NCBI RefSeq assembly: GCF_004402785.1
Contig: NZ_SOFP01000075.1
Coordinates: forward strand, 1 to 64,000
Length of the DNA stretch: 64,000 nucleotides
Direction: 5' to 3'
DNA from: Cryobacterium algoritolerans
Lineage (GTDB): Bacteria; Actinomycetota; Actinomycetes; Actinomycetales; Microbacteriaceae
Both the position numbers and the translations under genes were made by a program. The notes beneath the pieces are model-generated. The model had not been told where the DNA came from. It saw only the letters and a program-made list of their open reading frames with translations, and searched no databases. How positions within the stretch are numbered: position 1 is the stretch's first letter; each line of letters opens with the position of its first letter. Below are positions 24,208 through 33,543 of this stretch, one piece after another.

Positions 24208-24714
24208 CTATGAGCCGGACGAGGTCGGGAAGAGCGGCCGACAGGTCCTGCAGACCTCTCCGTCTTCACCTTCCGCGGAACGATCCCACTGGGCGAGGGC
24301 ACGGTACTCGCTCGCCAGCCGTTCGAGCAGCGCCCAGGACAGCAGGGCGATCGCGGCGACCGCGACGACCGGGCGCCCGAATCCGTCCAGCAGAGGCACC
24401 ACCGTGCGCAGATCCGTCGACAGGTAGAGCGAGATCACACCGAGCATCGGCCAGCGCAGGTCGCACATGGTCGCTTCCGCGCCGATCGGGGCATCGAAGT
24501 AGCTGGCGACGACCAGGCCGACCAGCCCAGCGCCCGGGACGACGAGGAGGTAGCCCCACCACGTACCCGGGAACGTGATGGCTCCGCCTGCGTACCCGAC
24601 GGTGCCCGAGGCGACCACGAGCGCGACGACGACCCCGACGGCGACGCCGGCCGAGATCATCCGTCGTTTGACGGGCCAGGTTCGCAATTCGCTGAGGGTG
24701 CCCGCGATGTTCAT
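24208..24714 (-). CDS. Conserved membrane protein with C-terminal CxxC
   Basis: The 168-residue protein has about four transmembrane helices (MISAGVAVGVVVALVVASGTVGYAG, WWGYLLVVPGAGLVGLVVA, MLGVISLYLS, VVAVAAIALLSWALLERL), read as patterns, and a polar C-terminus with CRTC. Its ATG overlaps the stop of the upstream membrane gene as ATGA, so both are translated together. The pair is divergent from a CsoR/CstR-type repressor with the 16-bp palindrome between, so it is likely controlled by that regulator. The role is not established; the redox-type CxxC pairs suggest thiol or sulfur chemistry at the membrane. Confidence 0.7.
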   Translation of the reverse strand: MNIAGTLSELRTWPVKRRMISAGVAVGVVVALVVASGTVGYAGGAITFPGTWWGYLLVVPGAGLVGLVVASYFDAPIGAEATMCDLRWPMLGVISLYLSTDLRTVVPLLDGFGRPVVAVAAIALLSWALLERLASEYRALAQWDRSAEGEDGEVCRTCRPLFPTSSGS

Positions 24715-25268
24715 GGCAAGACTGATTCCGTGGTCGACTCGACCACTGTGAGGGCGCACGAACTCTCCCGGCTGAGGCGGGCGTGTAACGCCCAGCCGAG
24801 AAGAATGATTGATGCCCCTGCAAGGTACGGCTGCACCGGTCCGAAGAGCTGTAGCGCCCCACTGGCGCCGAGGGCCAGGAGCACGATCTTGTTGCAGACG
24901 GGGCAGCCCACGGCGAAGAATGTGATCATCCAGCCGGCGAGGCCGAGACGGCCCTCCGAGCGGCTGGGCGCCGCCCCCTCCGGGTAGGCCACGTAGGTGG
25001 CGAACACGAGTCCGGAGAGAATGGCGCTCACCGCGAGAACCGGCCAGGACCAGTTCGTCGGGGCAACCGCGCGGGCGAACAACGGCGTGTCGATCAGGTC
25101 GGTGGGAATCGCGATCACCAGGTAGGTACCGACCGCGGTGGCCAGGGCGATCCACCAGCGCCGAGCGGGCCATCGTCGAAGCGACCCACCCGCGATCGCG
25201 AGGGATCCTGCCAGCCGTGAGGCCGGCGGCCGCCCCGGATCGACTGCGGACGTTCGTTCACGCTGCAT
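24711..25268 (-). CDS. Conserved membrane protein with CPVC motif
   Basis: The 185-residue protein has about four transmembrane helices. A GCPVCNK motif lies within the third, giving a CxxC pair in or near the membrane. ATG 25268 is preferred because AGAGG precedes it at good spacing; ATG 25283 is also in frame. Its end overlaps the next gene as ATGA. It lies directly downstream of the 16-bp palindrome at 25333-25348 that also faces the csoR-like gene, so it is probably derepressed together with it. A thiol-carrying membrane role is plausible but unproven. Confidence 0.7.
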   Translation of the reverse strand: MQRERTSAVDPGRPPASRLAGSLAIAGGSLRRWPARRWWIALATAVGTYLVIAIPTDLIDTPLFARAVAPTNWSWPVLAVSAILSGLVFATYVAYPEGAAPSRSEGRLGLAGWMITFFAVGCPVCNKIVLLALGASGALQLFGPVQPYLAGASIILLGWALHARLSRESSCALTVVESTTESVLP

Positions 25269-25332
25269 CGCTGGCCTCTTCATAAGGCGGAGGTGAAATC
25301 CGGAAAGGACGAATACCCAAGGAGGTATTTTT

Positions 25333-25348
25333 ATACCGTACGGGGTAT
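25333..25348. promoter_or_regulatory. CsoR/CstR-type operator, copy 1
   Basis: The palindrome ATACC-N6-GGTAT lies between the divergent membrane pair (start 25268) and the repressor gene (start 25419). The same motif occurs at 28630, 28723 and 32885. It resembles known CsoR/CstR operators, which are GC-rich inside with AT-rich ends. It fits autoregulation and control of the membrane genes. Confidence 0.75.
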
Positions 25349-25418
25349 TCTGTTGAGGGTCAAACTCGATCGGGCACCCCTCCCGTCGACACCTCACACC
25401 AGCACGGGAACACACGAA

Positions 25419-25772
25419 ATGATCTCCTCACCAGACTCTGCGCCGCACCTCACTGCGCCCTCGGCGTCCCCCGGCGACGAGCCGACCGCCACTGCAGCCG
25501 CATCGACGAAGCTCGACGACCTGCGCAAGACCGTCAACCGGCTCAAGCGCGCCCAGGGACAGTTGGCCGCAGTGATCGCCGCCGTCGAATCCGGAGCAGA
25601 CTGCCGGGCCGTCGTCACGCAGCTGGCGGCGGTCTCCAGCGCGATCGACCGCGCCGGCTTCACGATCATCTCCACCGCCATGAAGGAATGTCTCACCGAG
25701 ACCGGTACGGACGGAGCCAAGAAGCCCCTTCGGGTCGAGGAACTCGAGAAACTGTTCCTCGCCCTCTCCTAG
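25419..25772 (+). CDS. CsoR/CstR-family repressor, probably persulfide-sensing
   Basis: The 117-residue protein is the all-helical DUF156/CsoR fold: LDDLRKTVNRLKRAQGQLAAV, SGADCRAVVTQLAAVSSAIDRAGF, TAMKECL. The two Cys are 29 residues apart, as in CsoR C36/C65 and in CstR. The residue aligned with CsoR His61 is Ala, so a complete Cu(I) site is absent. That arrangement points to a CstR-like sensor that responds to reactive sulfur through the Cys pair. The neighbours (TauE, rhodanese, CstB-like, thioredoxin) agree. An N-terminal Ser/Pro-rich extension precedes the domain. Confidence 0.85.
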   Translation: MISSPDSAPHLTAPSASPGDEPTATAAASTKLDDLRKTVNRLKRAQGQLAAVIAAVESGADCRAVVTQLAAVSSAIDRAGFTIISTAMKECLTETGTDGAKKPLRVEELEKLFLALS

Positions 25773-25794
25773 GCCGGCGCTGGAGTCTGACCGG

Positions 25795-26559
25795 TCAGCC
25801 GACCAACGCCTGAACGGCCACATAGACCGCGACGCCCTCCACCAGCACGGCGAAGCCCCGCTTGAGGACCGTGTCGGACAGACCACGTCCGAACCGGCCC
25901 GCAATCAGGGACGCCGTCATGGCAGCCCCGGCAAAGGCACCCGTGACGGCCCAGTCAATCTGTACGTCGCTAAGGTGCGCGGTGAACCCGGCGATGGAAT
26001 TGATGACGATTATGACCAGCGAGGTCCCCACCGTCACGCCCATCGGCAGGCCGAGGACCAGCGTGAGCGCCGGAACGATGAGGAATCCCCCACCGACGCC
26101 GAGCAGCCCGGTGAGAAATCCGACCACCGCACCGGTGGCCAGCGCCCTGGGCAGGCAGCTGCGCCAGTTGACGCCTCCACCGGGGAGCGCGCAGGGACCA
26201 CCCACCGACCTGGTCGGAAGAAACATCCTCACGCCGGCGATGACCATGATCAGGGCGAAGACCCCGAGAAGCAGGCGCGGGTCGAGCATCCGGTTCACCA
26301 CGGTGCCCAGATACGCCGTGGCCACGCCGGCGGCGCCGACGAGCAGGGCGAGGCGCCAGTTCACGCCGCGGCGGAGGCGGGGAAGCACCGCAACGGCCGA
26401 GGCCGCTCCCACCACGATCAGGGAGGTCGGGATCGCCTCGGACAGCGGCAGGCCCACGCCGTAGACGAGGGCGGGGACGGCGAGAATCGACCCACCCCCG
26501 CCGACCAGGCCCAGCAGCGCCCCGATGATCAGGCCGAGGACGAGGGCCGTGACGATCAC
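25795..26559 (-). CDS. TauE/SafE family sulfite exporter
   Basis: The 254-residue protein has about eight transmembrane helices arranged as two similar halves, each opening with a glycine-rich helix (ALLGLVGGGGSILAVPALVY; TGLLGVGGGFLIVPALTLVLG). This is the standard TauE/SafE pattern, a family that exports sulfite or other organosulfur anions. The GTG start (26559) overlaps the rhodanese stop as GTGA, so they are coupled. In a CstR-type gene set, TauE removes sulfite made by persulfide dioxygenase. Confidence 0.88.
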   Translation of the reverse strand: MIVTALVLGLIIGALLGLVGGGGSILAVPALVYGVGLPLSEAIPTSLIVVGAASAVAVLPRLRRGVNWRLALLVGAAGVATAYLGTVVNRMLDPRLLLGVFALIMVIAGVRMFLPTRSVGGPCALPGGGVNWRSCLPRALATGAVVGFLTGLLGVGGGFLIVPALTLVLGLPMGVTVGTSLVIIVINSIAGFTAHLSDVQIDWAVTGAFAGAAMTASLIAGRFGRGLSDTVLKRGFAVLVEGVAVYVAVQALVG

Positions 26560-26867
26560 GGCGCCGGGGGCAGAACCATGGAGAGCCCCTCGGCCGCCCA
26601 CTCGAGCATGCCGCCCGTCATCGTGTGCGCGTCGAACCCGCCCTCGGCCAGGTGCTCCGCGGCTGCGGCGCTGCGTCGCCCACTGCGACAGACGACGATG
26701 ACGGGCCGAGTCGAATCGAGCGCCGCGTGGCTGTCCGGAATCAGTGCCAAGGGGATGTGGCGAGCCCCGGGGATCATTCCGTCGCCCAGCTCTTCGGTTT
26801 CTCGAACGTCGACGATCTGGGGCTCGTCCGCTCGGGTGGAGACCTGCCGTGGGGTGAGTTCCGTCAT
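26556..26867 (-). CDS. Single-domain rhodanese
   Basis: The 103-residue protein is one rhodanese domain: IVDVRETEELGDGMIPGARHIPL, then the active-site loop VVCRSGRRSAAAAEHL with catalytic Cys, and the closing GGMLEWAAEGL. Such small rhodaneses carry persulfide sulfur to acceptors. It is translationally coupled to the downstream TauE gene. No ATACC-N6-GGTAT site is visible directly upstream, so it may be transcribed from the 27.2-28.6 kb region or from its own promoter. Confidence 0.92.
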   Translation of the reverse strand: MTELTPRQVSTRADEPQIVDVRETEELGDGMIPGARHIPLALIPDSHAALDSTRPVIVVCRSGRRSAAAAEHLAEGGFDAHTMTGGMLEWAAEGLSMVLPPAP

Positions 26868-27217
26868 GAGTGCCTTTCTGAAGAGGGAGAAGTGCGGTGT
26901 TCACAGCCGAGAACCCCGGAGAGCCAGGCCAGAGCACAGAGGCCGATCAAGATCGCCCCGGGGAGTTGAGGTCGGGCGCCCCGACGACGTCGAGGGCTCC
27001 CCCGCCGACGCCGAGGTCGGAGAGCATGGACATCAGGCCGTGCTGACGGCCTGGCCGAGCATCACCGGGGTGTTATCCGCCCGATCGGGCCAGATCCGGC
27101 AGGATGAAGACGAGCAGCGCCCCGGCCGAGTCGATGGAGGGCGCTCACGGTCGCACCCGGCCGAGAACGCTTCGCTTCTCGGCCGGATGGCCTGCGGTTC
27201 GGAGCACCGGCACTGGT
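26868..27217. other. 350-bp gap with degenerate membrane-protein-like fragments
   Basis: No intact gene is seen. On the minus strand, short hydrophobic stretches occur in different frames (LLVFILPDLARSGG ending at a stop; GAILIGLCALAWLSGVLG), which look like remains of a small membrane protein gene between the CstB-like and rhodanese genes. The family is not recognised. A strong hairpin lies at 27157-27186. Confidence 0.4.
27157..27186. terminator. Terminator hairpin after CstB-like gene
   Basis: CCGGCCGAGAA (27157-27167) and TTCTCGGCCGG (27176-27186) pair perfectly over 11 bp with an 8-base loop, 31 bp beyond the stop of the minus-strand metallo-beta-lactamase/rhodanese gene. Confidence 0.75.
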
Positions 27218-28579
27218 TTAGACCGCTTGCTTTGCCATTGGCACCCCGGCGACCTGTGCATCGCCGAAGGCTGCGTCGACGTGCACGACGCTCCGGCCGG
27301 CGCGCTGCAGGAGGCTGGCGGCAACCCCGGCACGGTACCCGGATCCGCAGTGGACCCAGATCGTGCCTGCCGGGATTTCATCCATCCGGGCGAGGATCTC
27401 GTGCAGGGGCACGTTCACCGCGCCGAGCAGGCGCGAGTCGGCGAACTCGTCCGTGCGTCGGGTGTCCAGGAGCACGTCGTCAACAGAGCGATCGCGCACG
27501 AGTTCCGCCCAGCCGACGCGGGGGTACGAGGCGACAGGGGCATCCGGGGCCAGTGCGTGCGGCTCGGTCCCGATGGCGGCATCCGGCGAGTCGATGCCGA
27601 TCCGGGACAGGTCACGGATCGCATCTTCGACGTCGGCGTGCGCGCCGACGAGGGTGAGCTTCTCGTTCCAGGGCAGCACCCAGCCGAGGTAGGTGGTGAA
27701 GTTGGAACCGTTGCCGTATTCGAAGCTCACCGAACCCTGTAGGTGGTTGCTGGAGAACGCGACCCTGTTGCGCAGGTCGACGACCCATTCACCGTCGGCC
27801 AGTCGGCGAGTCAGTTCCGCACCGTCCAGCGACTCGGGCACCTGGAGGTTCACCGGACCGGGACCCTGGGTGTTGGCCGGCGCCATGTGCGCGTAGTACG
27901 ACGGGTAAGCGCTGAGGTTGGCGATCAGGTCGGCGACGAAGTGATCCTCATCGGCGTCGGTCAGGGCGTGGTTCGCCGAGACCTGCTCGCCGATCGTGGA
28001 TGCGCCGGCTCCGGTGGCAGGACCGCTGGAACAGAATGAACCGAAACCGTGCGTCGGGTAGAGCGCGGCGTCGTGCTCGGCCTGGTGCACGAGCTTACGC
28101 ACCGACGCGTACTGGTCGTGGGTGAGCCCGACCGTATCCGTGGCGGCGACCAGGTCGGTGCGGCCGACGGATCCGAACAACAGGCTGCCGCCGGAGAACA
28201 CGGCCTCCGTGGTGCCGTCGCTGACGATATAGGAGACATGGGTGTGCGTGTGCCCCGGGGTGGCGACAACGGTGACACTGAGGGTGCCGACCTGGATGAC
28301 CTGGCCGTCCGCTATGGGCTCCCGGTCGAACTTCACGGGGTCGGCGGCGTTGACCAGGTACTTCGCGCCGTGTGCCCTGGCAAGCTCGTAACCCCCGGTC
28401 ACATAGTCATTGTGCAGATGGGTCTCTGCGACGTGGGTGATCGAGACCCCGGCTTCACGGGCGGCGGCATCCAGCCGGTCGGTGTCGCGCTGCGGGTCGA
28501 TGATCAGTGCAACGGCGCCGTCATGCACCAGATAGCTGCGGTCTCCCAGCTGCGGGGTTTCGATAACGATGATGTCCAT
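27218..28579 (-). CDS. CstB-like MBL-fold persulfide dioxygenase with two rhodanese domains
   Basis: The 453-residue protein has an ETHE1/CstB-type metallo-beta-lactamase domain (residues about 1-245) with AETHLHNDYVTGG, the TPGHTHTHVSY His segment and YPTHGFGSFC. Two rhodanese domains follow. The first (VVDLRNRVAFSSNHLQGS) lacks a Cys and looks inactive; the second carries VHCGSGYRAG with the catalytic Cys. CstB proteins turn persulfide into thiosulfate or sulfite using Fe(II) and oxygen. GGAGG precedes ATG 28579. A 16-bp operator lies 51 bp upstream, facing the divergent thioredoxin gene, consistent with CstR-type control. Confidence 0.9.
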   Translation of the reverse strand: MDIIVIETPQLGDRSYLVHDGAVALIIDPQRDTDRLDAAAREAGVSITHVAETHLHNDYVTGGYELARAHGAKYLVNAADPVKFDREPIADGQVIQVGTLSVTVVATPGHTHTHVSYIVSDGTTEAVFSGGSLLFGSVGRTDLVAATDTVGLTHDQYASVRKLVHQAEHDAALYPTHGFGSFCSSGPATGAGASTIGEQVSANHALTDADEDHFVADLIANLSAYPSYYAHMAPANTQGPGPVNLQVPESLDGAELTRRLADGEWVVDLRNRVAFSSNHLQGSVSFEYGNGSNFTTYLGWVLPWNEKLTLVGAHADVEDAIRDLSRIGIDSPDAAIGTEPHALAPDAPVASYPRVGWAELVRDRSVDDVLLDTRRTDEFADSRLLGAVNVPLHEILARMDEIPAGTIWVHCGSGYRAGVAASLLQRAGRSVVHVDAAFGDAQVAGVPMAKQAV

Positions 28580-28629
28580 GGTTCGAAGTCCTCCAGGTCT
28601 CAATGCGGATCGGTTCTACCACTGATAAT

Positions 28630-28645
28630 ATACCCCCCTGGGTAT
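28630..28645. promoter_or_regulatory. CsoR/CstR-type operator, copy 2
   Basis: An ATACC-N6-GGTAT palindrome lies 50 bp upstream of the minus-strand CstB-like start (28579). It sits in the divergent region with the thioredoxin gene, 78 bp from copy 3, so each direction has its own site. Confidence 0.8.
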
Positions 28646-28722
28646 CAATCGACAAATCGGAGCGTGGCACCCGGCGCTCCCCATCCATGTGCCGACAGAT
28701 CCCCCAGAGGGTGGTTGCACTA

Positions 28723-28738
28723 ATACCCCCTAGGGTAT
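28723..28738. promoter_or_regulatory. CsoR/CstR-type operator, copy 3
   Basis: An ATACC-N6-GGTAT palindrome is centred 20 bp before the thioredoxin ATG at 28750. Bound repressor at this position would block transcription of trx and the following MFS gene. Confidence 0.8.
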
Positions 28739-28749
28739 ATTCTGGGTGC

Positions 28750-29118
28750 ATGGCTACCACTGACATCACCGAAAAGACGTTCGACGAGACCATCACCGAC
28801 AACAGCATCGTTCTCGTGGATTTCTGGGCCGGCTGGTGCGGCCCGTGCCGCATGTTCGCGCCGACCTTTACCGCGGCCTCGGAGAAGCACCCGGAGATCG
28901 TATTCGCCAAGGTCGACACCGAGGCCGAACAGGGCCTGGCCGCTGCGGCCGGCATCCGTTCCATCCCGACTCTGATGGCGTTCCGAGACAAGATCCTCGT
29001 ATTCTCCCAGCCCGGAGCGCTCAACGCGTCGTCCCTGGACGAGGTGATCACTGCAGTGCAGAACCTCGACATGGCGGCCGTGCACGCCGGCGTCGCCGCC
29101 CGGCAAGCGTCCGCCTGA
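28750..29118 (+). CDS. Thioredoxin
   Basis: A standard thioredoxin of 122 residues with the active site FWAGWCGPCRMFAP, the VDTEAEQGLAAAAGIRSIPTLMAF block containing the cis-Pro, and a short Ala-rich tail beyond the usual end. It probably reduces protein persulfides or supplies electrons in the sulfur module, since it lies behind an ATACC-N6-GGTAT site and is divergent from the CstB-like gene. The tail (VHAGVAARQASA) is atypical. An MFS gene follows after 23 bp. Confidence 0.93.
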   Translation: MATTDITEKTFDETITDNSIVLVDFWAGWCGPCRMFAPTFTAASEKHPEIVFAKVDTEAEQGLAAAAGIRSIPTLMAFRDKILVFSQPGALNASSLDEVITAVQNLDMAAVHAGVAARQASA

Positions 29119-29141
29119 CCACTGGTCCGTCACGCAGCCCC

Positions 29142-30449
29142 GTGAGCCTCCCGGCCATCCCCAGGCCCCGCGCTGACCGCGCATCCCTGCCGGTTGCGCT
29201 GGGCCTGAAGCAGAATCTGGCCCAGTTTCTGCTGCTCGTTGCCGTCAATGCGTTTGTCGGTGGCACGCTCGGCCAGGAGCGCACCGTGCTACCGCTCCTG
29301 GCGGACAAGGTCTTCCACCTGGACCTCTATACGAGCGCCCTGACCTACATCGTCGCCTTTGGCCTGGCCAAGGCAGGCACGAACTATTTCGCGGGGATTC
29401 TCTCCGACCGCCACGGTCGCAGACCCGTGCTCATCGCCGGCTGGTTGATCGCCATTCCCGTGCCGCTGCTGCTGATCTTCGCGCCCTCCTGGGGTTGGAT
29501 CGTGGCGGCCAACGTCGTGCTGGGGATCAGCCAGGGCCTGACCTGGTCCACCACGGTGATGATGAAAATGGACCTCGTGGGTCCGGAACGCCGCGGACTC
29601 GCGATGGGATTCAACGAGGCCGCCGGCTACCTAGGCGTCGCCGGCGCGGCACTGGCCACCGGCTTCATTGCCGCCACCTCCGGGCTTCGACCCGGCCCGT
29701 TCCTGCTCGGCGCCGCCTTCATCGCCGTCGGCCTCGGACTCTCCGTCCTCTTCGTTCGTGAGACGCACCACTACGCCAAGGTCGAGGCGGCCACCCACGT
29801 GCCCGTGCACGCCAACGCCGGCTCCGCTCTCAGTAACCGTCAGGTTTTCACCCTCACCAGCTTCCGGGACAGGTCGCTGTCCTCGGTGAGTCAGGCGGGC
29901 CTGGTCAATAACCTCAATGACGGCCTGGCCTGGGGCCTGTTCCCGATCCTCTTCGCGGCGGCCGGCCTGAGCATCGAACGAGTCGGCATCCTCGCCGCGG
30001 TCTACCCTGCGGTCTGGGGTGCCGGCCAGCTCATCACGGGCGCACTCTCCGACCGGATCGGCCGCAAGTGGCTGATCGTCGGTGGGATGCTGGTGCAGGC
30101 GGTGGCACTGGGCTTGGTCGGTGTCGGCCACGGTTTCGACACCTGGCTGGCCGCCGCGGTGATGCTCGGGGCCGGAACCGCCATGGTCTATCCGACCCTG
30201 CTGGCCGCCATCGGCGACGTCGCCCACCCCGAATGGCGCGCTCGGTCCGTGGGAATCTACCGTCTGTGGCGTGACGGTGGGTTCGCAATCGGCGCTCTGC
30301 TTTCCGGCCTACTCGCCGACGCGTTCGGCATTCCGAGCGCGATCCTGGTCGTGGCAGCACTGACCGCAGCATCCGGCGCAGTGGTGGCCGTGCGCATGCG
30401 AGGAACCGACTACGTTGACGCTCATCCAGCACCGGGACACCCGGGATGA
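29142..30449 (+). CDS. MFS transporter in the sulfur module
   Basis: The 435-residue protein has about twelve transmembrane helices and MFS loop motifs: GILSDRHGRRPVLIAGW between helices 2 and 3 and GALSDRIGRKWLIVGG in the second half. It starts at GTG 29142 shortly after the thioredoxin gene, so it is probably cotranscribed under operator copy 3. The substrate cannot be predicted; sulfur compounds, or drug/metabolite efflux as in related proteins, are both possible. It looks whole, unlike its right-hand neighbours. Confidence 0.85.
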   Translation: MSLPAIPRPRADRASLPVALGLKQNLAQFLLLVAVNAFVGGTLGQERTVLPLLADKVFHLDLYTSALTYIVAFGLAKAGTNYFAGILSDRHGRRPVLIAGWLIAIPVPLLLIFAPSWGWIVAANVVLGISQGLTWSTTVMMKMDLVGPERRGLAMGFNEAAGYLGVAGAALATGFIAATSGLRPGPFLLGAAFIAVGLGLSVLFVRETHHYAKVEAATHVPVHANAGSALSNRQVFTLTSFRDRSLSSVSQAGLVNNLNDGLAWGLFPILFAAAGLSIERVGILAAVYPAVWGAGQLITGALSDRIGRKWLIVGGMLVQAVALGLVGVGHGFDTWLAAAVMLGAGTAMVYPTLLAAIGDVAHPEWRARSVGIYRLWRDGGFAIGALLSGLLADAFGIPSAILVVAALTAASGAVVAVRMRGTDYVDAHPAPGHPG

Positions 30450-30504
30450 GCCGATGAGCGTGCACACCGTCCTGCCCGATGCTGATCATTCGCCCCCGCC
30501 GTTC

Positions 30505-31127
30505 CTAGCCCGCGGGAGCGGCGGTGCCGGTGGCGGGCAACCGGATGGTGATCGTAGTTCCCTCGCCCGGCGCCGACGTCACCTCGATGGTCCCGCCGTG
30601 GCTGCGCACGATTTCGCGCACCAGGGCCAGGCCGATCCCTGAACCAACCGCGTCACCAGCCAACTCGCGCCGAGCGCCACGACGAGCGCGACGGCAGCCG
30701 CCACGGCGATCCAGGACCAGGCAACGTCGACCACCCGGGTTCCGGCCATGACGGCTCCGTGACCCATTCCCTCACCCATTCCCTCGCCGTTGGGGCTTCC
30801 GCCACCGTTGCCACTGGTTTGGATCGTCGTGCCGTCGGCGTACAGGACGGCGAGTCTGGCCGATGCGGCGGCGGCGATCGCAATGGCCCGACTCAGATCC
30901 GCCCGGTCCCAACCACCGCCCTGCCGGAAGGCGTCGGCCGCAGCGTTAACAGCAGCGCCCGCGAACTCTTCGCGGTCGGCCTGCTGGGCCACCTGCACTC
31001 CCCGATCGACACCGATCAGGGCGGCTCCGCTGAGCACGAGCACCGACGAGACGGCGAGCAGCACAAAGGCGAACAGGAGCCGACGTTCGATTGGGCCCAG
31101 TCCCAGTTCCAGTCCGGCAGGGGTCAT
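30505..31127 (-). pseudogene. Sensor histidine kinase remnant
   Basis: The N-terminal part (ATG 31127) has a membrane helix (LLFAFVLLAVSSVLVLSGAAL), an extracytoplasmic region with a Gly/Met-rich loop (GMGEGMGHG), and a second helix ([24 protein letters not shown]). It then jumps, out of frame, straight into the last part of a HATPase domain ([33 protein letters not shown]), ending at 30505. HAMP, the phospho-acceptor His box and the N box are all missing, so it cannot be a kinase. Its ATG overlaps the response-regulator remnant stop, as in normal kinase-regulator pairs. Confidence 0.8.
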
Positions 31128-31433
31128 GGCGTCTCGTCCTGGCGCAGCCCGAGCCGGTAGCCGACCCCGAGCACGGTCTCCACCCCGTCGGCTCCCGAGG
31201 CATCGAGCTTGCGCCGGAGGTTTTTGATGTGGAAGTCGATGGTGCGCTCGTAGCCCGCATATTCGTAGCCGCGAACCCGGTTGACGAGTTCGTAGCGCGA
31301 GTCCACCCGCCCCGGCGCGGCTGCGACCGCGGCCAGGAGCCCCACTCGGTCGGGGTCAGGCCGAGCAGGGTCCCATCCAGCCAGGCCTTGTGGGAGCCGT
31401 CGGTCCCAGAATCGATGCTGGAATCGAGAGGTC
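31124..31433 (-). pseudogene. OmpR-type response regulator remnant
   Basis: Only the C-terminal winged-helix domain survives. WLDGTLLGLTPTEW is in one frame, then after a shift LLAAVAAAPGRV, ELVNRVRGYEYAGYERTIDFH, HIKNLRRKLDASGADG and VLGVGYRLG. The receiver domain is lost, and the left end meets the start of the SQR remnant. It overlaps the kinase remnant by ATGA at 31124-31127, showing that this was once a two-component operon. Confidence 0.8.
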
Positions 31434-31437
31434 TGAC

Positions 31438-32310
31438 CTGGCACGAGTCGTCATTCTGGGGGCCGGGTTTTCCGGCCACACCGCAGCGCTGTTCCTCACG
31501 CGGCGCCTGGGCAGGAGCCACGACGTCGTCGTGGTGTCACCCAACTCAAACTGGAACTGGATCCCCTCTAACATCTGGGTCGGCGTGGGCAAGATGAGTC
31601 CCGCGAAAGTGGTCTTCCCGCTTGCCCCGATCTACCGGCGCAAGAAGATCGATTTCCGCCAGGCCAGGGCGGTCGCCCTGCGCCCGGAGGGTGACGCCGA
31701 CAACGCCCGGGGGCCGTGGACGTGGTCTACACCGACCCGACGCGAGCCTCGCCGACCGAACGCATCCGTTACGACTACTTGATCAACGCCACCGGCCCCA
31801 AGCTGAACTTCGCCGCAACCCCCGGGCTCGGTCCGGATTCCGGCCACACCGTCTCGGTCTGCACGCCCAACCATGCCGTTGAAGCAGCCAGGCACCTGGC
31901 CAACGAGCACGAGCTGGGCGATTTCGGCGGCGGCGGAATGACCTTCAGCCAGGCCGGCCGCCGGATCACGAGCGAAGCCTGGATGGAATCGCTCTTCCGC
32001 AAAAGGAAGATTAAGGCGATCACCCAGGCCGCGGTGACCGAGATCGAACCCAGACTGATCCACTACCGGCACAACAGCGGACTGGCCGAACACCTACCAG
32101 AACCCGAGCTACCCCAACGTGTTCGGTATCGGGATCGCGTTCACCGACATGATCCTGAACGTTGCGACCGAACCGACCCACACCGCGTCGATGGGCGAAA
32201 TGGCGGCCGCCTGCATCGCCTCTACGGGCAAGGGAATGCGCTCCGGCACCGCGGCGGCCATGTCGATGTCGCCGATCGTGTCCGGCCTCCCGCCACCCGG
32301 ACACGGCAGG
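31438..32310 (+). pseudogene. Sulfide:quinone oxidoreductase remnant
   Basis: Fragments of an FAD-dependent SQR appear in order. The dinucleotide-binding start (VVILGAGFSGHTAALFLTRRLG) and NWNWIPSNIWVGVG are in frame 1. RYDYLINATGPKLNF, HTVSVCTPNHAVEAARHL and ELGDFGGGGMTFSQAG are in another frame. YQNPSYPNVFGIGIAFTD and MGEMAAACIASTGKGMRSG are back in frame 1. The stretch with the catalytic Cys (normally between AARHL and ELGDFG) and a later block are deleted, and the normal C-terminus is lost. No good start codon precedes VVILGAG. It shows that the sulfur module once included sulfide oxidation. Confidence 0.82.
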
Positions 32311-32363
32311 GCGGTATCCGGGTGCAGGCGGGCCGAGCGGCCCGCGACTGCGCCCTGGGCACG

Positions 32364-32822
32364 CTACAGATACCGGGCGGTCAGGCGCTCCACGGCGTCC
32401 ACACCGCCGGCGAGGTATCCGGCCCAACTAACGCCTGCGCGACCGGGCCCCTCACCCTGGGACCTCCAGCGATCGCGGATGTCGAGCAGCATCCCACGGG
32501 CAGCCGCGTCACCATCGGGGGCGGGTGGGAGGCGACGGATGGCCCGGCGCACCTCGGCCAGGACCGCGGCCTCTCCCTCGTAGTACTTCGCCGCTGGAAC
32601 CGCGCCGGGTCCCCGGGACAACGAGCACAGCGACTGTCCGCCGGTGGCGGCGGCCAGGCGCTCGAGCGCTTCGTTCTGGCGAGCCGCAATGCCCGCGGCT
32701 AGCGCCCCGAGGCCACCGCCCTCGCCGGAGGCTAGTTGCAGGTGCAACGCTGCGCGGGCGGGACATCGGCCATGACGCTGGCGACGTGTTCGCCACATCC
32801 GGCCCAGGTGATCTTGCCGCAA
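32364..32822 (-). CDS. Hypothetical protein
   Basis: The frame opens at a TTG (32822), but sequence with protein-like character begins near 32735: residues such as ARQNEALERLAAATGG, AAKYYEGEAAVLAEVRRAIRRL, GMLLDIRDRWRSQGEG and a terminal AGGVDAVERLTARYL. No family was recognised. It starts inside the small Cys-rich gene at 32732-32848 in a different frame and lies downstream of operator copy 4, so it could belong to the same transcript. It may be a decayed gene; the coding status is uncertain. Confidence 0.35.
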   Translation of the reverse strand: MRQDHLGRMWRTRRQRHGRCPARAALHLQLASGEGGGLGALAAGIAARQNEALERLAAATGGQSLCSLSRGPGAVPAAKYYEGEAAVLAEVRRAIRRLPPAPDGDAAARGMLLDIRDRWRSQGEGPGRAGVSWAGYLAGGVDAVERLTARYL

Positions 32823-32848
32823 CGGTTACAACGGACTGCACTGCACAT
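32732..32848 (-). CDS. Small Cys-rich protein (38 residues) behind operator copy 4
   Basis: A short gene starts at ATG 32848 with AAGGAG six bases upstream and ends at TAG 32732. The product contains CNRCGK, WAGCGEHV and a C-terminal CTC, giving several Cys and a His suited to metal or persulfide binding. Similar small proteins (xCGKxTWAGCGxHV pattern) are widespread in Actinobacteria. The ATACC-N6-GGTAT palindrome at 32885-32900 lies 37 bp upstream, so this is probably a member of the sulfur regulon. Its size kept it below ordinary gene-calling limits. Confidence 0.75.
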   Translation of the reverse strand: MCSAVRCNRCGKITWAGCGEHVASVMADVPPAQRCTCN

Positions 32849-32859
32849 GGGTCGCTCCT

Positions 32860-33543
32860 TCATTCGTCCGACGGAAATATCAGGATACCCCCCAGGGTAT
32901 AAAAAGTACAGCTCAGGAGATGCCTCGGAATGAGTCCACGACGAACGTGAGGGGGTGGCTTGTGAATTCGTCGAATATCCGACGCTAAGGTTCTGTGGCT
33001 GTGAATCGCATCGGTAGATGGCGTGGTTTTCGCAGCGTTGATTGGCGCGACCGGTGTCCGGTTGACCGACAACGCCTCACCCCGAGCGGTGCCGGCAGGT
33101 TTGGGCCACAGCACCACAGAATCGGGAGCGTCCCGCACCAACAACCCCGTGAACCGCTCGCCGATCGCACCGGCCGAGACGGCGAAAGCGCGCAACCAAC
33201 CGCGGACCGTTGAGGCAGGCCTGCCGCAGCCCGCGGCGATCTTCCGGTGGCCCCACCCCAGCACGGTCTTCGCCTCGACGGCTGCCGCGATCACTTCGGC
33301 CGCATCGGCCCGGCGGGCGGCCAACCGAACCTCCAAAAGCGCATCCGTGCCCCGGCAGGCCGTGCACCGGGACCGGCGCGGCCGGAGCCTGCGGCCCGCC
33401 CAATCTGTGCCGAGGCCGTCGCGGATGACGCGGTCCCTGGCCCACCCCCAGGGGCGCAACCGACCACCACAATCTAGGCAGACCACGCGCCCGGCCAGGA
33501 GGTTCAACTCGACAACAACAGGATCATGACTTGCCGTGAGCAT
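32860..33543 (-). pseudogene. DUF6431-like zinc-ribbon/HTH protein of a mobile element, C-terminus replaced
   Basis: A 227-codon frame starts with a zinc-ribbon (VVCLDCGGRLRPWG, then SRCTACRGT) and a helix-turn-helix (VLGWGHRKIAAGCGRPASTVRGWLRAF). This is the pattern of DUF6431-type proteins that accompany actinobacterial transposases. After about residue 145 the text is unlike the family and runs through the operator and promoter of the small Cys-rich gene. The protein therefore probably lost its true C-terminus where the element joined older DNA. No matching transposase gene is adjacent. Confidence 0.55.
32885..32900. promoter_or_regulatory. CsoR/CstR-type operator, copy 4
   Basis: The palindrome ATACC-N6-GGTAT lies 37 bp upstream of the small Cys-rich gene and also falls inside the C-terminal end of the frame at 32860-33543. 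It marks a surviving regulated promoter at the edge of the decayed segment. Confidence 0.75.

Follow-up and report, generated by a model that had tools for sequence, protein, structure and literature searches.

The cst operon of Staphylococcus aureus comprises the sensor CstR together with CstA, CstB, SQR and TauE; to our knowledge, neither thioredoxin nor the microprotein described below is part of it. In Streptomyces coelicolor, the repressor ScCsoR of the SCO0618-SCO0621 circuit has a 16-bp operator, ATACCn6GGTAT, which was defined by gel shift; polysulfide releases ScCsoR via Cys37, with Cys66 also required, and ScCsoR acts through cysteine persulfidation, S. aureus CstR through polysulfide bridges (PMC7533328). 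A further cysteine-reactive, CsoR-family repressor of sulfur-oxidation genes, TTHA1953 of Thermus thermophilus with the operator TACNNTACNNNNGTANNGTA, comes from a report that sets the T. thermophilus Sox system against CstR organisms (PMC10318464). Here, we analysed the first 64,000 nucleotides of contig NZ_SOFP01000075.1 of Cryobacterium algoritolerans (the window), in which palindromes of the pattern ATACC-N6-GGTAT lie beside sulfur and thiol genes. The best explanation, with high probability, is that the window contains the core part of a reactive-sulfur regulon of the CstR type (ScCsoR-like), and that a cysteine-rich microprotein is a recurrent member of this regulon.

Regulons of this kind (ScCsoR/CstR) are already known. 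The operator pattern in the window is identical to that of ScCsoR, for which the same 16-bp operator was gel-shifted, so that operator and regulator both belong to a described type. The two circuits also share a CsoR-like two-Cys repressor, a persulfide dioxygenase-rhodanese fusion, TauE, a rhodanese and putative autoregulation (PMC7533328). Compared with the circuit as presented in the parts of that report considered here, the window and host add a thioredoxin gene followed by a major facilitator superfamily (MFS) gene, a membrane protein pair, two microprotein genes, a second CstR-type gene, a coenzyme A (CoA)-disulfide-reductase-type gene with a rhodanese domain and a YgaP-like gene by a one-mismatch site. 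No microprotein match was found in the nine listed genomes of our family f6 (7-10 Mb, presumed Streptomycetaceae). With the S. aureus operon the window shares a CstR-type sensor and a CstB-like protein of metallo-beta-lactamase (MBL) and rhodanese domains, nearly full-length in its match to PDB 3r2u, which we take to be S. aureus CstB. That operon has SQR, whereas no intact SQR was recognised in 24.0-33.6 kb of the window, where an SQR-like gene lies in pieces. The operator of TTHA1953 differs from that of the window (PMC10318464).

A pattern scan found five exact copies of ATACC-N6-GGTAT in the window, starting at 25313, 25333, 28630, 28723 and 32885, and 100 dinucleotide shuffles of the window gave a mean of 0.03 and a maximum of 1. 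The original prediction had listed the last four, all of which proved exact; it missed the copy at 25313..25328 (ATACCCAAGGAGGTAT), 29 nt from the memA ATG and 20 bp from the copy at 25333..25348 (ATACCGTACGGGGTAT); the latter is 70 nt away from the cstR start codon, and both copies lie in one divergent promoter region. The other three stand 50 nt upstream of the CstB-like gene (28630..28645), 11 nt upstream of the thioredoxin ATG (28723..28738) and 36 nt upstream of the microprotein ATG (32885..32900). A weight matrix derived from 99 sites in other genomes scored only the five known sites in the window above 8 bits; as its training sites all fit the predicted pattern, it cannot find very different ones. 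The sites at 28630, 28723 and 32885 reached 20.8-26.3 bits, and those at 25313 and 25333, the weakest of the five, 16.2-20.1 bits. All copies thus fit the pattern, but calling them one identical class overlooks that these two carry one degraded half-site each, the right one at 25313 and the left one at 25333.

In the whole genome (3,715,409 bases, 87 contigs) the pattern occurred seven times, at the five window sites, at C57:83269 and at C33:14167, and the reversed pattern, used as a control over the same 87 contigs, gave no site. The site on contig C57 precedes the CoA-disulfide-reductase-type gene, whose C-terminal rhodanese domain was found by search and whose name is inferred; downstream follow a rhodanese-like frame, recognised by eye, and then the second CstR-type gene. 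The site on contig C33 precedes the second microprotein gene, a paralog of 56 aa. All seven sites therefore adjoin sulfur/thiol (cst-type) genes, a CstR-type gene or a cysteine-rich microprotein. The scan did not turn up the frequent sites far from sulfur genes that would have spoken against the proposed regulon; the word local, however, does not fit, since the same site also precedes related genes on two other contigs. When one mismatch to ATACCC-N4-GGGTAT was allowed, two further places appeared, C65:11117 (L223), which precedes a YgaP-like transmembrane protein (PF11127) and may be a further regulon member, and C83:102356 (L224), which by eye has a cupredoxin-like gene and a response-regulator gene nearby and is possibly a copper-type site.

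We compared the operator with its sensor over 100 genomes of the same family as the host (84 genera). A CstR-type gene, called by query match at E <= 1e-10, was present in 47 of them, and in 30 genomes the repressor matches split into two groups, one sharing at least 43% and the other at most 31% identity with the window protein. Exact ATACCC-N4-GGGTAT was found in 44 of the 47 CstR-positive genomes versus none of the 53 CstR-negative ones (Fisher p 3e-25, phylogeny not corrected), and in 47 of the latter a different PF02583 gene, of unspecified type, is present. These results support that the operator follows CstR-type genes and not PF02583 genes in general.

The window repressor (25419..25772, plus strand, 117 aa) is a member of PF02583/DUF156 (E 1.6e-20, 73.7 bits against a cut-off of 22.8). 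Aligned to solved CsoR-family proteins it keeps both cysteines, Cys62 and Cys91, and has Ala87 where metal sensors such as InrS have His. The arrangement C...(A/G/S/T)...C was found in 81 of 81 aligned homologs and His in none; these homologs, the window's own included, are tblastn matches at E <= 1e-8 in the collected loci, and such close matches are expected to be of the query's own type. Copper CsoR is defined by Cys-His-Cys copper ligands, and with Ala in the His position the window repressor was rejected as a copper CsoR. The genome holds three PF02583 genes: the window cstR, one more gene of the CstR type (C57:85295) and one of the copper type (C83:85812), which carries LNDHLNHC (HLNHC) and has copZ/copA-like genes beside it by eye. 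As PF02583 membership, two Cys without His and linkage to operators ahead of persulfide-handling genes support, the window repressor is predicted to be CstR-type. The CstR-type regulon put forward in the original prediction thus stood up to the examination of the protein, of its ScCsoR-type operator and of the tie between the two over 100 genomes.

The 38-aa microprotein (32732..32848, minus strand; C2, C7, C10, C18, H21, C35, C37) belongs to a family found in 46 of the 100 family genomes and in 64 of 396 phylum genomes. It occurred together with CstR in 42 family genomes and alone in 4, with CstR alone in 5 and neither in 49, which corresponds to an odds ratio of 103 (Fisher p 7e-18, phylogeny not corrected). 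In a first set of 67 distinct microprotein genes that fit the motif expression, the window copy excluded, an exact site lay within 200 nt upstream in 41, that is, in 30 of 40 genes with a long C-terminal tail and 11 of 27 short ones, against a background of 63 in 1767 200-bp stretches of the same loci, a count that includes the sites themselves. A second set was made of the best 80 microprotein loci by similarity among the matches listed in named genomes, whose genera include Cryobacterium, Arthrobacter, Microbacterium, Corynebacterium, Mycobacterium and Nocardioides; among these listed matches, those of Cryobacterium (Microbacteriaceae) came closest to the window copy. In these 80, an exact site stood upstream of the microprotein in 39 (elsewhere in the same loci in 32 of 2849 stretches), CstR lay within 5 kb in 49, a site or CstR was present in 70 and a site or sulfur gene in 75; in 31 of the 41 loci without an own site, the microprotein gene was co-directional with nearby cst-type genes. 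With all loci pooled, 89 of 184 distinct microprotein genes had an exact site within 200 nt upstream, and the gap from site to start codon was 20-59 nt in 80 of these 89. Operator and CstR co-occurrence thus strongly support the microprotein as a recurrent CstR-regulon member, as had been proposed for the window copy, and this is the new part of the finding.

The microprotein also appeared in other settings. In L053, L195, L050, L064 and L039 a thioredoxin gene is flanked by a long microprotein gene on one side and a short one on the other, and several such rows are divergent from cstR with two operators between. It is carried on 65 plasmid records, mostly from Rhodococcus, Clavibacter and Arthrobacter; among 40 listed plasmid copies, an annotated feature lies under the microprotein in 2 and none in 38, the gene table being incomplete. 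In three plasmid loci (L239-L241) an exact site lies 35, 49 and 69 nt upstream of the gene. One of these plasmids has a YgaP-like gene near the microprotein and TauE, a rhodanese and an MBL-fold gene farther away; another has an FAD-dependent oxidoreductase and a rhodanese with it, along with a 'metal-sensitive transcriptional regulator'; the remaining one has a regulator of the latter type and an MBL-fold hydrolase. Relatives were seen in four IMG/VR contigs (L225-L228, of which L225 has an exact operator upstream) and in the unannotated phage record MT835623.1. Contig L163, labelled as an Acidobacteria metagenome-assembled genome, has the same microprotein as the family contig G066:C17 and is probably a mislabelled bin.

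Members of the microprotein family are about 38-62 residues long, with the consensus MC-x4-C-x2-C-x4-W-x-GCG-x-H...C, and many end in a GFFxRLFGR-like C-terminal tail. C2, C7, C10, W15, G17, C18, G19, H21 and C35 were invariant in 76 of 76 aligned members; for most of these, the collecting expression had preset Cys at 2, 7, 10 and 18 and an aromatic residue at 15, and had not preset H21 or C35. Among Pfam models none matched more than 3 of the 76 (best DUF5651, E 5e-4), NCBIfam models reached at most 2 members, with 0.011 as the lowest E overall, a PHROGs search gave nothing convincing, and a PDB sequence search found no significant relative. Literature searches for GKTTWAGCG, TTWAGCGQH, KTTWAGCG and TWAGCGQHV gave no occurrence, and a search by title and abstract start gave no description of the microprotein, which is no proof of its being unpublished. 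It seems to have been overlooked, plausibly because so short a gene escapes gene calling. Twelve motif stretches from ten extra genome loci and four viral ones were considered as domain fusions and rejected, each being by eye a microprotein with an M or V start; some sit in long stop-free frames, whose upstream sequence looked arbitrary by eye, with no domain search made on it. Eukaryotic (plant, fungal) proteins of similar pattern exist.

The apparent co-regulation of the microprotein with genes that oxidise persulfide, transfer sulfur and reduce thiols suggests that it is a thiol protein or a zinc-thiolate protein in direct contact with sulfane sulfur. It may accordingly be a small zinc-knuckle-like thiol protein that takes up or buffers sulfane sulfur, with thioredoxin or CoA-disulfide reductase recycling it. 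We tentatively extend this to the whole family, as one possibility that is rather less likely to be right than wrong: a dedicated actinobacterial sulfane-sulfur carrier or buffer, switched by CstR, carrying the persulfide on Cys, in many cases held near the membrane by the tail, and emptied by the co-regulated thioredoxin or CoA-disulfide reductase.

A different role would also fit a genuine sulfur regulon. The microprotein could be a zinc site or zinc-releasing redox protein, sulfane sulfur attacking the zinc-thiolates and the protein re-buffering zinc, a proposal that deserves serious attention even if the odds are against it. C7-x2-C10, C18-x2-H21 and C35 are kept in all 76 aligned members, for most of which the collection had preset Cys at 2, 7, 10 and 18, and the AlphaFold model shows a CxxC hairpin and then GCGxH with a short helix (mean predicted local distance difference test score 77, about 84 over the first 40 residues). 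On the other hand, this model has no match among solved folds, and the identified neighbours are sulfur-transfer and thiol-reducing genes, zinc genes not having been searched for. Copper control of the CsoR/RicR type would make the microprotein a metallothionein-like copper buffer, and RicR does control the Cys-rich metallothionein MymT. The palindrome resembles copper-sensor operators, the ScCsoR site having been likened to the CsoR site of Geobacillus thermodenitrificans and the RicR site of Mycobacterium tuberculosis (PMC7533328), and one one-mismatch site lies near the cupredoxin-like gene. The motif alone is therefore not decisive, and the 100-genome comparison decides. The absence of the operator from all 53 CstR-free genomes, many of them with another PF02583 gene, goes against copper, as does the 12-kb stretch around the host's copper-type csoR, inspected by eye with its copZ/copA-like genes, in which there was no exact operator. 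Copper-type CsoR was, moreover, the best match in none of the best 80 named microprotein loci. For the seven exact sites we rejected the copper-sensor reading on these three grounds, and copper control in general appears very improbable.

The original prediction also had one repressor probably controlling all sites, a proposal that the presence of two CstR-type genes in the genome limits. Each repressor could serve its own subset, the window then being one of two partly separate regulons; each CstR-type gene stands near its own site or sites, and the two sites at the window cstR are the weakest by matrix score. The operator cores are alike, however, and genomes with a single CstR (e.g. G020, G030, G059, G067, G074) hold three to seven sites of the same consensus, so that such a division seems doubtful. 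Several observations weigh against the CstR-type regulon with its microprotein as drawn here. The genome has two CstR-type genes to either of which the sites could belong, and the one-mismatch site at C83:102356 points to possible overlap with copper control. Three genomes (G049, G055, G063) are CstR-positive without exact ATACCC-N4-GGGTAT, and nine of the 100 have microprotein or CstR gene without the other. No exact site lies within 200 nt of 95 of the 184 microprotein genes, and among phylum-search loci beyond the family just 4 of 27 have an exact own site upstream, which makes the direct operator chiefly a feature of the host family and of families close to it. Outside the host genome, a site stood upstream of none of five memA-like and one of four memB-like genes, and the microprotein model resembles no solved fold in the PDB search.

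The promoter anatomy suggests how the CstR-type switch would work. When 85 upstream regions, those of the host among them, were aligned, the three positions after the right palindrome arm showed A (62%), any base and T (72%), so that GGTATAnT contains a TATAnT -10-like box; site and start lay a median of 37 nt apart. At the site at 28630 the TAT arm overlaps a minus-strand -10-like hexamer (TTGTCG-17-TATATT), weak evidence alone since two promoter-like sites in the region compare with 0.6 in shuffles; ahead of thioredoxin, TTGCAC is followed by GGGTATATT, which overlaps a -10-like hexamer. Occlusion of RNA polymerase is the simplest inference from this overlap. In the resting cell the reduced repressor would sit on the ATACCC-N4-GGGTAT operators, whose right arm is part of the -10 box, and keep RNA polymerase out. 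Sulfane sulfur would modify its two Cys, and the repressor would leave the DNA; operator binding, release and occlusion are modelled here on relatives. Derepression would then allow expression of persulfide oxidation (CstB), sulfur transfer (rhodanese) and sulfite export (TauE), as well as of thiol reduction (thioredoxin and, from another contig, the CoA-disulfide-reductase-type gene) and the Cys-rich microproteins.

The remaining genes of the cluster fit this scheme to different degrees. The CstB-like gene (27218..28579, minus strand) encodes an N-terminal MBL and a rhodanese domain over its full length, matching PDB 3tp9 (E 6.8e-58) and 3r2u (E 5.2e-40) nearly end to end; its persulfide dioxygenase activity is putative. 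The rhodanese gene (26556..26867, minus strand; PF00581, 4.3e-17) and that of a TauE/SafE sulfite-exporter family protein (25795..26571, minus strand; PF01925, 7.9e-45; start codon uncertain) probably form one transcript with cstB from the site at 28630, with about 350 nt between cstB and the rhodanese gene. On the other side lie thioredoxin (WCGPC; 28750..29118, plus strand) and, downstream, the MFS transporter (29142..30449, plus strand). Among thioredoxin homologs of at least 52% identity, 24 of 32 rows showed an exact site no more than 450 nt upstream (own excluded, two rows below 52% left out, several loci covering the same gene), as did 19 of 27 distinct proteins, 14 of them within 200 nt; these counts are biased, as loci were collected for microprotein or CstR and some sites precede a microprotein gene ahead of thioredoxin.

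The membrane pair appears to be a weaker regulon member. memA (24711..25283, minus strand) encodes a predicted multi-helix membrane protein with a CPVC motif and no Pfam family, and memB (24208..24714, minus strand) its distant paralog with a C-terminal CRTC motif; a search with the predicted memA structure gave no significant fold match. Its proposed place in the regulon is favoured by the operator 29 nt from memA and by five of the best 80 named loci (L119, L137, L143, L149, L180), in which a total of six memA- or memB-like genes lie no farther than 5 kb from the microprotein gene, which indicates some linkage to these clusters, but the pair is rare, with memA matching 4 of the 100 family genomes, own included, and has little conserved association with sites. 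One memB-like row (L180) is actually a memA gene, and the memA, memB and TauE queries began at least one codon before the likely start. Between 31390 and 32340, a flavin adenine dinucleotide (FAD) oxidoreductase, presumably SQR-like, exists only in pieces, with Pyr_redox_2 fragments below cut-off in two frames, and is possibly a decayed sulfide-oxidation gene inside the cluster. Beside it are part of a histidine-kinase ATPase (30505-30663) and the C-terminus of a response regulator (31124-31444).

What this analysis adds to the known circuit is a clean genome-wide operator set, its comparative tie to CstR-type sensors, and a microprotein, mostly unannotated, that recurs among the targets. One expected stimulus, sulfane sulfur, is thereby linked to this actinobacterial microprotein, which belongs to no named family, and its function becomes directly testable; with the operator, reactive-sulfur regulons can be mapped cleanly in genomes that lack annotation.

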